Assembly (NCBI GenBank): GCA_019261985.1
Contig: JAFAQY010000042.1
Span: 1-64,000, forward strand
DNA: 64,000 bases
Direction of reading: 5' to 3'
From: Bryobacterales bacterium
Lineage (GTDB): Bacteria > Acidobacteriota > Terriglobia > Bryobacterales > Bryobacteraceae
The translations under genes and the position numbers were made by a program. Below, one piece after another: positions 34,289-37,866 of the stretch. The notes beneath the pieces were generated by a model that saw only the letters and a list, made by a program, of their open reading frames with translations, made no database searches and was not told where the DNA came from. Positions within the stretch are counted from its first letter, which is position 1. Each line of letters starts with the position of its first letter.

Positions 34289-34348
34289 GATAGTGCGGGG
34301 GTTCAATAAAGGTTCAAAATCGGCGGCTCCCGCGCGCCAGCGCTGGGA

Positions 34349-34354
34349 TATAAT
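34349..34354 (+). promoter_or_regulatory. -10 element TATAAT of the VWFA gene
   Basis: A consensus TATAAT ends 10 nt before the ATG at 34365. The predicted transcription start is therefore only about 3-5 nt upstream of the start codon. No strong -35 is seen at 17 nt. Confidence 0.5.
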
Positions 34355-34364
34355 CTCAGGTGTG

Positions 34365-35414
34365 ATGTGGTCCCCACTTGGCCGCTTCAGTCCCCGGATT
34401 GGGCCCCTGATCAGCGCGCTTATTAGCCGAAGATCCGCGTGGGCGGGGGCATTCGTCGCCTGTCTCGCATTCGCCCAGCAACCCATTCGGGTGCAGGTAA
34501 ACGAGGTTATCGTTCCGGTCACCGTTACCGATGAAAAAGGGCGCTTCGTCTCCAACCTGGAACAGAGCGATTTCCAGATCTTCGACCAGGGAAAAGAGCA
34601 GACGATTCGCTTCTTTAATCGAGAACGCAATCAGCCGGTCGTAATCGGGCTGCTGATGGATCTTAGCAATAACAGCAAAAGCCAGTGGAAAAGCTATCTG
34701 GATGCCGCGAGCGAGTTGATGTACACTTTGCTCCCCGGCGACAAGAAATATTCGGGCTACCTGATTGGTTATTCGACGGAAGCCGAAGTGATGGTGGACA
34801 CCACGCCTGAGGCCGACCCCATCGTCCAGAAACTGAAAAAGAGCAAGCCGGGCGGCGGCGCGGCTCTCTACGACGCCATCTACATGGCTTGCACGAGCCG
34901 CAAATTGGTCAGCGGCGAACCCGTCGAGCCAAGGCGAGTGATCGTGGTGATCGGAGACGGCCACGACAACGCCAGCAAGAAATCGTTGAACGAAGTCATC
35001 GAGTTAGCGCAACGCAATCTGGTTACGATCTACGGCATCAGCACCACCGCGTACGGATTCCAGACCGGCAGCGAGAACATCCTCGAAAAGCTGGCGGAGG
35101 AGACCGGAGGACGGGTGGAGTACCCTCTGATGAACGTGTACAAAGACGTATCGGGATATCTTTCGACCCCGTCCGACGAGGGCAATTTCGCATACAAGGT
35201 CGGAACCGGCGGCTATGCGTCCGCGCTTTCGAATGCCGTGTTTAAAGCGATCGGCAATGTGGCGGGCGAGATCACCACGCAATACATTCTGAGGTATATA
35301 CCGGACGGCTCCAGCTCCGATTCCGACCGCAACTTCCGCGCGATCAATGTGAAGGTCGATCTGCCGGATGTGAAGGTTCGCGCCCGCAAGGGTTATTACC
35401 CATATAATCCGTAA
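34365..35414 (+). CDS. VWFA-related protein of the acidobacterial TIGR03436 family
   Basis: The ATG at 34365 gives 349 residues with an N-terminal hydrophobic export signal (SAWAGAFVACLAFAQ). The family opening is VQVNEVIVPVTVTDEKGRFV followed by LEQSDFQIFDQGKEQ. A von Willebrand A domain follows with a MIDAS-like DLSNNSKS and a later VIVVIGDGHDN strand. The C-terminus KVRARKGYYPYNP is typical of TIGR03436. The role is unknown; VWFA domains usually bind proteins through a metal. A start at 34293 would lie upstream of the TATAAT. Confidence 0.9.
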   Translation: MWSPLGRFSPRIGPLISALISRRSAWAGAFVACLAFAQQPIRVQVNEVIVPVTVTDEKGRFVSNLEQSDFQIFDQGKEQTIRFFNRERNQPVVIGLLMDLSNNSKSQWKSYLDAASELMYTLLPGDKKYSGYLIGYSTEAEVMVDTTPEADPIVQKLKKSKPGGGAALYDAIYMACTSRKLVSGEPVEPRRVIVVIGDGHDNASKKSLNEVIELAQRNLVTIYGISTTAYGFQTGSENILEKLAEETGGRVEYPLMNVYKDVSGYLSTPSDEGNFAYKVGTGGYASALSNAVFKAIGNVAGEITTQYILRYIPDGSSSDSDRNFRAINVKVDLPDVKVRARKGYYPYNP

Positions 35415-35617: not shown

Positions 35618-36406
35618 ATGCCTATCGTAGAGACGCAGCCGGGGCGGCTTTGCATTCTCGAAGTCGAGAAACCGGGCGGCGATGTGATGCCGGTCGGCGT
35701 TTTGCTCATCGATCCGGCCCACGACAAGCTCTACGTGCGTGTACGCCGCGATTGGGACAATATACTTCCCGAGGAATCCGACGTTCTCGAAGCCATGGAA
35801 AAGGGCTTGGCCCACCTTGCGAATGAGATCGGCGCGGTCGCGCTGCTCGAATATTTGCAAGCGACGCTTTCGAATACCTTTCGGATGAGCGAGCCGGGCG
35901 ACATTATGGTGGAGGACTTTGAACGCGCGGTGGCGCGATTGTACCGGCGGCATGTGCCTTCTACTATCCGGCCGTTCGTTACTCATCTGCCGCGCTATGC
36001 CGTAGCGGTCGCGGCCGGCAAGTTTCTGGATAACCAGGAAGTGGTCGAGGAAGACTGGATCGAGGCGCCCGAGGACCTGAAACTCACTCCCGGCATGTTC
36101 ATCGCCCGTATCGCGGGGCGGTCCATGGAGCCCAAAATTTCCGACGGGAGCCTCTGCGTTTTCCGCGCGCCCGTCGTAGGCTCGCGCCAAGGACGCCTGG
36201 TTCTGGTGGAGGCTTTGGGGCGGGGAAATAATGACCGCTACACCGTGAAACGCTACCGGAGCGAAAAAAGTCAACTCCCTTCAGGCGCATGGAGCCATGA
36301 CCGTATACGTCTGGAACCGCTGAATCCGGAATTCGAGGCTTGGGACTTGGCCCCGGAAGAAGATCGCTACCGGATTTTCGCCGAGTTTTTGCGCGTTCTG
36401 GAATAA
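35618..36406 (+). CDS. LexA/UmuD-like S24 autoprotease with unknown N-terminal domain
   Basis: The ATG at 35618 follows GAGGTG and gives 262 residues. The C-terminal half (about 125-262) matches S24 peptidases. It has an Ala-Gly cleavage site at A133-G134 (VAVAAGKFLDN), the nucleophile S169 in ARIAGRSMEPKISDG and the general base K211 in RYTVKRY. The N-terminal 120 residues contain no helix-turn-helix. They read as a compact alpha/beta domain (MPVGVLLIDPAHDKLYVRVR, then helices around EAMEKGLAHLANEIGAVALL). Cleavage would release this head. A start at 35507 adds only an Arg-rich stretch. The ALDH gene begins 20 nt downstream. Confidence 0.85.
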   Translation: MPIVETQPGRLCILEVEKPGGDVMPVGVLLIDPAHDKLYVRVRRDWDNILPEESDVLEAMEKGLAHLANEIGAVALLEYLQATLSNTFRMSEPGDIMVEDFERAVARLYRRHVPSTIRPFVTHLPRYAVAVAAGKFLDNQEVVEEDWIEAPEDLKLTPGMFIARIAGRSMEPKISDGSLCVFRAPVVGSRQGRLVLVEALGRGNNDRYTVKRYRSEKSQLPSGAWSHDRIRLEPLNPEFEAWDLAPEEDRYRIFAEFLRVLE

Positions 36407-36426: not shown

Positions 36427-37866
36427 ATGATGGAAGCTCACGAAGAAGTAATTTCGTTCAATCCCGCTACCGGAAAACAGCTCGGCCGCGTACCGCTCGC
36501 GGGCGAAACCGAGTACGAATCCACCATCGTCCGCGCGCACGCAACCTTTCTCCGCTGGCGCATGCTGCCCGCGCCCCAGCGCGGCGAGATCGTGCGCGAA
36601 ATCGGCGACGAGCTGCGCCGAGCCAAGCGCGACCTGGGGCGGCTGGTGACGCAAGAGGCCGGAAAGATTCTGGCCGAAGGCGAAGGCGAAGTACAAGAAA
36701 TGATCGACATTGCGGGGTTCGCCGTGGGCCTTTCGCGCCAGCTTTACGGCCTGACCATGCCGAGCGAGCGCCGCGGCCACCGCATGTACGAGCAGTGGCA
36801 GCCGCTGGGCGTAGTCGGAGTAATCACCGCTTTCAATTTCCCCGTAGCCGTGTGGAGCTGGAATGCTCTGATCGCGATGGTGTGCGGCGACACTGTGGTG
36901 TGGAAGCCATCGCTCAAAACTCCTTTGACCGCGGTCAAAGTACAGCAAATCTGCGATACCGTGCTGGCGCGCCACGGATGGGAGGGCGTCCTGAATCTGT
37001 TAGCCGGCAGCGACGGGCACATCGCGAGCCGCCTGGTCCGCGATGTCCGTGTGCCTCTTATCAGCGCGACGGGCTCGGTTCGGATGGGCAAGCAAGTGGC
37101 GCCGGTCGTAGCCGCGCGGCTCGGGCGGACGCTGCTGGAACTGGGAGGCAACAACGGCGTAATCGTCATGGATGACGCCGACCCGGATCTGGTTGTCCGC
37201 GCCGTCCTGTTCGGCGCCGTCGGAACGGCAGGCCAGCGCTGCACTACCATCCGCCGTCTGTTTGTGCAGAAAGGCGTCGCGCCCCAGATCGCGGAGCGCC
37301 TTATCGCCGCATACCGGCAGGTCCGCGTTGGAGATCCCCTCGATCCCTCCACGTTGATGGGGCCGCTGATCGACCGAAGCGCGGTGGACAACATGATGCG
37401 CGGGCTCGAGATCATCCGGGAGCAGGGCGGCGAGGTGCTCTACGGCGGAAAGCACCTGGAGGGCTGCTTCGTCGAGCCAACGATTGTGCGCTCGCGCCCG
37501 GATATGCCGGTCCTAAAGGAAGAAATCTTCGCGCCCATTTTGCACTTAATTGAATTCGAAACGCTGGAACAAGCGATCGCGTGGCACAACGATGTTCCCC
37601 AGGGGCTTTCGTCGGCGATATTCACCAACGGCTTGATCGCATCGGAACGGTTCCTGAGCGCGCGCGGCAGCGACTGCGGTATCGCAAACGTCAATATCGG
37701 CACCAGCGGGGCCGAGATCGGCGGAGCATTTGGCGGCGAAAAGGAAACCGGCGGCGGACGGGAATCGGGGAGCGATTCGTGGAAAGCCTATATGCGCCGG
37801 CAGACGGTTACCGTAAACTGGTCGAACGAGCTGCCGCTCGCGCAGGGGATCACGTTTGAGTTGTAG
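36427..37866 (+). CDS. ALDH7-type aldehyde dehydrogenase, probable L-aminoadipate-semialdehyde dehydrogenase
   Basis: The 479-residue enzyme has the ALDH catalytic Cys in GTAGQRCTTIRRLF, the Glu in LLELGGNNGVIV and the NAD-binding N of FNFPVAVWSWN. The C-terminal GTSGAEIGGAFGGEKETGGG and RESGSDSWKAYMRRQT blocks mark the ALDH7/antiquitin branch, which oxidises 2-aminoadipate 6-semialdehyde in lysine breakdown. Two ATGs stand in tandem at 36427 and 36430. It follows the S24 gene by 20 nt and is probably co-transcribed, though no functional link is known. Confidence 0.92.
   Translation: MMEAHEEVISFNPATGKQLGRVPLAGETEYESTIVRAHATFLRWRMLPAPQRGEIVREIGDELRRAKRDLGRLVTQEAGKILAEGEGEVQEMIDIAGFAVGLSRQLYGLTMPSERRGHRMYEQWQPLGVVGVITAFNFPVAVWSWNALIAMVCGDTVVWKPSLKTPLTAVKVQQICDTVLARHGWEGVLNLLAGSDGHIASRLVRDVRVPLISATGSVRMGKQVAPVVAARLGRTLLELGGNNGVIVMDDADPDLVVRAVLFGAVGTAGQRCTTIRRLFVQKGVAPQIAERLIAAYRQVRVGDPLDPSTLMGPLIDRSAVDNMMRGLEIIREQGGEVLYGGKHLEGCFVEPTIVRSRPDMPVLKEEIFAPILHLIEFETLEQAIAWHNDVPQGLSSAIFTNGLIASERFLSARGSDCGIANVNIGTSGAEIGGAFGGEKETGGGRESGSDSWKAYMRRQTVTVNWSNELPLAQGITFEL

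Follow-up and report, generated by a model that had tools for sequence, protein, structure and literature searches.

The window, by which we mean the whole stretch of DNA analyzed (64,000 nucleotides), contains a gene encoding a two-part protein, referred to here as DUF3037-S24. The gene lies on contig C60 of the 6.5-Mb genome of a soil bacterium. Its features and those of its surroundings are collected in Table 1, together with the S24-tailed enzymes that are described below.

Table 1. Features of the DUF3037-S24 locus, and loci of S24-tailed enzymes
Feature	Position or locus	Strand	Remark
VWA-domain gene (TIGR03436 acidobact_VWFA)	34293..35414	+	upstream, conserved neighbor
DUF3037-S24 gene	35618..36406	+	262 aa, ATG start
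Head, residues 1-120, divergent DUF3037	35618..35977	+	strands/helices predicted
Tail, residues 121-262, S24 autoprotease domain, LexA fold	35978..36403	+	Pfam and model
Predicted scissile bond Ala133-Gly134	36014..36019	+	A 47/47, G 43/47; low-confidence model loop
Predicted catalytic Ser169	36122..36124	+	invariant 47/47
Predicted catalytic Lys211	36248..36250	+	invariant 47/47
Aldehyde dehydrogenase, L-piperidine-6-carboxylate dehydrogenase type	36430..37866	+	downstream, non-conserved
S24-tailed enzymes	L052, L054, L055, L179-L198		other Acidobacteriota

The neighboring genes were compared across homologs, as the preliminary description had proposed. The VWA gene was found upstream, in the same orientation, at 45 of the 52 other loci compared; five of these 52 are duplicates from genomes that were already represented. 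Downstream, mutY was found at the two loci checked for it, with one match over the model cutoff and the other just under it. The aldehyde dehydrogenase (ALDH) gene of the window starts 23 bases downstream of the DUF3037-S24 gene on the same strand, and its product scored 746.5 bits against the L-piperidine-6-carboxylate dehydrogenase model (cutoff, 730). Co-transcription with this gene had been suggested, but ALDH was present in the flanks of none of the 52 other loci (most flanks were 1.5 kb long, and some were cut by contig ends), and an ALDH operon was therefore rejected as a meaningful link.

Some part of the DUF3037-S24 protein was matched in 91 of the 299 genomes of the class. Within Bryobacteraceae, a match was obtained in 66 of 67 genomes, G097 being the one without; G129, G261 and G293 are among the few with a partial match. 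The named relatives (n = 18) were labeled as Bryobacteraceae, Bryobacterales, Solibacter or other Acidobacteria groups. The family had no match in phage records, and its single match in plasmid records was a tail-only one in Halomonas. No description of an S24-DUF3037 fusion was found in the titles and abstract openings of the papers listed, where absence is not the same as absence in print. The alignment used below has 47 sequences, including the window protein; it represents the loci examined, compared with the 66 family genomes with a match, and omits second copies (L002, L034, L036, L039, L067 and L068) as well as L011. At L011, in genome G193, a single stop codon separates the DUF3037 head from the S24 tail, around position 1840, a result of either decay or an assembly error.

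The S24 tail and the DUF3037-like head

Pfam matched Peptidase_S24 at residues 130 to 254 with 39.5 bits (cutoff, 23.3), and the same domain was matched at an E value of ≤0.1 in all 47 aligned sequences. The preliminary description had stated that the Ala133-Gly134 site, Ser169 and Lys211 of LexA and UmuD were kept, and the alignment confirmed this: A133, S169 and K211 were invariant, and residue 134 was Gly except in 4 of the 47 proteins, where it was Thr. Loss of the Ala-Gly site or of Ser/Lys in most homologs was thus not seen among these sequences. An AlphaFold model of the full protein had a mean pLDDT of 88.5. Its residues 118 to 262 superposed on LexA (1jhh_A) with a Z score of 14.5 and an rmsd of 2.4 over 123 aligned residues, and its best fold matches were LexA structures, including entries of LexA on RecA filaments. 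The cut site sits in a low-confidence loop of this model. Sequence searches against solved structures found no relative with the single protein as the query and one with the family profile, a LexA matched over the S24 part (E = 0.0098). Judged from the sequence and the model, the autoprotease half looks intact.

Three S24 matches were obtained in the genome at an E value of ≤0.001. The other two are a LexA with a DNA-binding head (contig C67) and a sub-threshold protein (C16), which we read as a signal peptidase. By its predicted fold and its residues, DUF3037-S24 belongs with the S24 autoproteases rather than with the LexA/CI repressors.

The head had been described as unassigned and faintly like DUF3037. 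The likeness proved real, and the head could be assigned. Pfam matched DUF3037 at residues 24 to 113 with 21.1 bits, just below the cutoff of 22.6; a match at an E value of ≤0.1 was obtained in 28 of the 47 homologs and none in the other 19, and at an E value of ≤0.001 Pfam found no DUF3037 in the window's own genome. Five S24-fused relatives (G004, G193, G258, G306 and G313) exceeded the cutoff, two of them only with neighboring pieces. A profile built from the heads of S24 proteins alone retrieved DUF3037 proteins without S24 at 20 distinct loci, with E values down to 8e-21, and missed 8 of the 17 non-S24 DUF3037 loci found by Pfam. In a profile-profile comparison with 14 stand-alone DUF3037 proteins, the head matched with a probability of 98.9% and an E value of 1.6e-17; the head alignment (A3) took in 64 of 68 rows. 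By homology, then, the head is a divergent DUF3037 that scores under the Pfam cutoff.

In a model of the head alone (pLDDT, 89), three strands are followed by a layer of helices, then by two short strands and a last helix. The strand pair noted earlier at residues 24 to 42 was recovered as predicted strands at 23 to 32 and 37 to 42. Neither Pfam nor the secondary structure seen in two models revealed a recognizable helix-turn-helix (HTH), in agreement with the preliminary description, and a hidden DNA-binding head, not seen in the two models, was rejected. The structural search that had been proposed along with the prediction gave no convincing solved match: the best Z score was 4.3, and Foldseek returned nothing at an E value of ≤0.001. 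This does not show that the fold of the head is new.

HipA_2 kinases and DUF3037 across the class

DUF3037 proteins have recently been tied to HipA kinases. In the accessible text of PMC12548924, defense by the Retron-Sda1 operon was abolished when the HipA kinase was deleted, and loss of the DUF3037 gene proved toxic. The authors' proposal is that the kinase is a toxin which the DUF3037 protein neutralizes, and the PADLOC name given there for HipA kinase/DUF3037 pairs is PDC-M66. DS-6, or HipAD, consists of a HipA-like kinase and a protein with DUF3037 and DUF1829, according to the portion of PMC13092281 at hand; the kinase mutant was without defense, and the second protein was modeled on DNA.

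The window's own genome has one HipA_2 kinase, at C117:2289-3131 (281 residues read; HipA_2, 46.6 bits), which matched PDC-M66A in PADLOC with an E value of 4.7e-9. Its residues D134, N139 and D176, which we take to be the catalytic and metal positions of the HipA family, were invariant in 37 kinases of Bryobacteraceae and 19 from other families. A canonical HipA_C toxin was dropped as a candidate because it had no match in the genome at an E value of ≤0.001. No DUF3037 was found in the 9 kb read around the C117 kinase, and the sole DUF3037 match of this genome was the S24 fusion, on a different contig.

Of the 299 class genomes, 224 had both a kinase and a DUF3037, 15 only the kinase, 6 only the DUF3037 and 54 neither, in a count that ignores shared ancestry. 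The corresponding numbers for the 67 Bryobacteraceae genomes were 65, 1 (G097), 1 (G234) and 0, and by our own reading of the match columns, 49 of the 67 had a single kinase match together with a single DUF3037 match. What was matched as DUF3037 in G261 is a short protein adjoining another kinase. Since both genes are near-universal in Bryobacteraceae, their co-occurrence there is uninformative and gives no internal test.

Outside Bryobacteraceae, the two genes were neighbors, whereas inside the family they were apart. In other families, kinase and DUF3037 were adjacent in 46 of 46 genomes among the matches listed, with a gap of 3 to 232 nt. Among the 20 non-S24 loci found by the head profile, 19 adjoined a HipA_2 kinase, and at L060/L119 the distance was about 3.5 kb. 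In a Pfam analysis of 61 relatives, a HipA_2 match adjoined 15 of 17 non-S24 DUF3037 genes, the two others being in G133 (C76) and G331 (C102). None of the 37 core kinases of Bryobacteraceae examined, most with a 1.5-kb flank, had an adjoining DUF3037; this set omits the divergent family kinases L063, L064, L084 and L119, the first three of which do adjoin one. The kinase was adjacent to DUF3037-S24 in no family genome read, and the closest spacing was 16 kb, on the same contig in G165. Therefore, the pairing of the two proteins is drawn from elimination, co-occurrence and the linkage seen in other families. In a quick tree, all 19 kinases from other families fell into one group (SH-aLRT, 99), with L085 and L093 labeled as alone by the head profile and linked by Pfam. 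The most parsimonious history has a single event on the Bryobacteraceae branch, in which the DUF3037 gene was separated from the kinase and gained an S24 tail.

Several loci differed from this layout. L063 (3369-3746) and L064 (3396-3827) encode short DUF3037 proteins, in frames of 126 and 144 residues, without the C-terminal domain; both adjoin divergent HipA_2 kinases of Bryobacteraceae, and the pair at L064 is oppositely oriented. At L060/L119, a hydrophobic, membrane-like stretch follows the DUF3037-like head, and the kinase is again a divergent one. A second kinase is present in G284, and the matches listed include no DUF3037 near it.

With PADLOC, the L058 pair matched both PDC-M66A and PDC-M66B, and the window protein matched no model, PDC-M66B included. 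Distance correlations were weak and did not single out the head: in 10 genomes, the head-kinase correlation was 0.46 (0.47 with LexA as a control), and in 34 genomes the tail-kinase value (0.51) was higher than the head-kinase value (0.43). VWA was a poor control in this analysis.

Transcriptional control was examined with a motif from lexA promoters. Of the 22 stretches listed from upstream of lexA, 19 contain TTCGCC after a run rich in T, mostly as TTTC-N8-TTCGCC, which is a putative operator. Many of the lexA upstream stretches of Bryobacteraceae (L199-L228) share a longer pattern, TTGA..TTTC-N8-TTCGCC..(C)AATA, possibly a direct-repeat LexA operator. A matrix was built from 16 sites, among them the genome's own lexA site (23.6), and scores were compared with shuffles that keep single-base content only. 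For the fusion gene, 22 upstream regions, each up to 2 kb long, were scored; the highest value was 11.6, and three of these regions lay above 10.9, the 95th percentile of the shuffles. The 55 regions upstream of HipA_2 kinases, a set with repeated copies and with some linked kinases from other families, showed a weak excess (median, 3.7 versus 1.7 in shuffles), with at least 8 above 9.1, the corresponding 95th percentile, and 2 above 15. The window as a whole had 5 matches with one mismatch, versus 8.95 expected. Upstream of the DUF3037-S24 gene, no convincing copy of this putative motif was found, and transcriptional SOS control of the gene was thus not supported. A link to the SOS response, if any, is therefore more likely to act on the protein than on transcription.

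S24 domains on restriction and defense enzymes

The family alignment was searched against 297 genomes of the phylum. Matches were obtained in 60, and 23 of the tail matches lay in open frames of at least 795 residues. Pfam scans of 14 of the 20 stretches fetched revealed restriction- or defense-type domains in 13; L198 (152 residues) had S24 alone. In these 13 and in L052, L054 and L055, the partners of the tail were HSDR_N with SWI2/SNF2 or an HsdR C-terminal domain, Type_ISP_C with an N6 methylase, DEAD/Helicase_C/MZB, ResIII proteins and Schlafen group 3 helicases. According to PADLOC, the two MZB proteins scanned matched DruE models, one ResIII protein gave a sub-cutoff match to the model of the BPTD_3080 restriction endonuclease, and one Schlafen-type protein matched defense models weakly. 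At L052, the S24 domain is internal to HsdR, flanked by the nuclease and motor domains.

The catalytic Ser and Lys and the Ala of the cut site were present in 24 of 24 restriction or defense tails, and Gly followed in 22 of 24 by eye; in L055 the residue after Ala-Ala is Asp by eye, and the alignment-based count scores it as Gly. In a tree of S24 domains made by a quick method with 16 of the 47 fusion tails, the DUF3037-S24 tails formed one group (support, 98) and, together with the tails fused to enzymes, were separated (100) from six LexA rows, which came from Bryobacteraceae and included the LexA of the window's own genome. L053, L181, L184, L185 and L195 carry guessed labels in this tree. 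No description of S24-tailed defense enzymes was found in the titles and abstract openings of the papers listed, which does not amount to their absence in print.

This distinct clade may serve bacterial immunity as a portable module, a safety device or a trigger at the level of the protein, through which DNA-damage signals would cut effectors or antitoxins directly and bypass transcription. We put this forward tentatively, as an idea with somewhat less than an even chance of being right. It would span type I, ISP and other restriction enzymes, DruE- and Schlafen-like helicases and, in Bryobacteraceae, the DUF3037 partner of a HipA_2 kinase.

A proposed self-cutting partner of HipA_2

We propose, with a probability of roughly 0.5, that DUF3037-S24 is an antitoxin-type DUF3037 protein whose usual C-terminal part has been swapped for an S24 autoprotease, so that it acts as a self-cutting partner of a HipA_2 kinase. 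The likely partner is the stand-alone HipA_2 kinase found elsewhere in the same genome. LexA and UmuD dimerize through their S24 tails. The intact DUF3037-S24 protein, probably dimeric in the same way, would bind and restrain the kinase. An activating signal, most simply a RecA-single-stranded DNA filament, would engage the tail, and Ser169 and Lys211 would then cut the Ala133-Gly134 bond. The head would lose its dimerizing tail, the complex would weaken and the freed kinase would slow growth. From the domains and the gene layout, we infer a partnership, a cleavage, its trigger and a cleavage that inactivates rather than activates the head. Because the protein is near-universal in Bryobacteraceae, a role in growth or stress is as plausible as one in phage defense.

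The same partnership could work with the opposite sign or constitutively, the tail mainly serving dimerization or the cleaved head silencing the kinase after stress. Since the DUF3037/DUF1829 protein of HipAD was modeled on DNA, in the part of PMC13092281 available, a swapped tail may chiefly replace a dimerization or DNA-binding function, and the Ala-Thr found at 4 of the 47 cut sites also speaks for such a version. However, Ser, Lys and the preceding Ala are kept without exception, which is more than a mere dimerization domain would need, and we consider such a version improbable. Cleavage triggered by something other than RecA, such as kinase binding, crowding or another stress, has a substantial chance, although we would not bet on it. 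IrvR of Streptococcus mutans, a LexA-like protein, is described as an exception to RecA control in the sections of PMC7101444 consulted; the S24 clade is distinct from LexA, and the gene has no convincing lexA-promoter motif. On the other hand, the predicted fold aligns best with LexA, RecA-filament-bound entries included.

The head might also be a DUF3037 relative with another job, unrelated to HipA_2, in a general stress switch tied to VWA or DNA repair. The conserved VWA gene and the mutY matches point that way, as do the unlinked kinase, the tail that correlates with the kinase as well as the head does, and the window protein's lack of a PADLOC match. We regard this as rather unlikely, however, because DUF3037 of other families adjoins a kinase that groups with the core kinase of Bryobacteraceae and because a single kinase match accompanies a single DUF3037 match in most (49/67) genomes of the family.

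If the self-cutting partnership is true, a LexA-type self-cutting switch would control a toxin-kinase system directly, bypassing both transcription and the usual protease-degraded antitoxin. DUF3037 would gain a natural variant, the control of which could be dissected with S169A and A133/G134 mutants. The S24 clade on restriction and Druantia-like enzymes leads to the testable idea that hosts toggle dangerous nucleases after DNA damage.

Among the systems compared, LexA, UmuD and CI share with DUF3037-S24 the fold (in the predicted model), the Ala-Gly site and the Ser-Lys dyad, but here no DNA-binding head was recognized and the tail clade is separate from the six LexA rows. The S24-tailed HsdR, type ISP, DruE-like, BPTD_3080-type and Schlafen group 3 enzymes have tails of the same S24 clade with a similar cut-site context; their tails follow several hundred to about 1,900 residues of nuclease, helicase or methyltransferase, in contrast to the 120-residue DUF3037 here. 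HTH-S24 regulators, as far as the available text of PMC7826846 goes, are assigned to Xre/HipA modules, and S24 proteins are tied there to HipA antitoxins by prediction. These regulators share the S24 domain and the predicted HipA antitoxin tie, but they combine it with an HTH and are taken as transcription regulators (PMC7826846, same text), whereas DUF3037-S24 has no recognizable HTH. A further comparison is with HipAD/DS-6/PDC-M66, in which DUF3037 is homologous to the head and whose kinase has a counterpart in the same genome, the HipA_2 protein matching PDC-M66A. The two-gene layout is kept by other families of the class. The differences are that the genes are non-adjacent here, that the C-terminal part is S24 and that the protein is near-universal in Bryobacteraceae. 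DUF3037-S24 is not filed as HipAD/PDC-M66 because of the separate genes and the different C-terminal part; it may work like that system.
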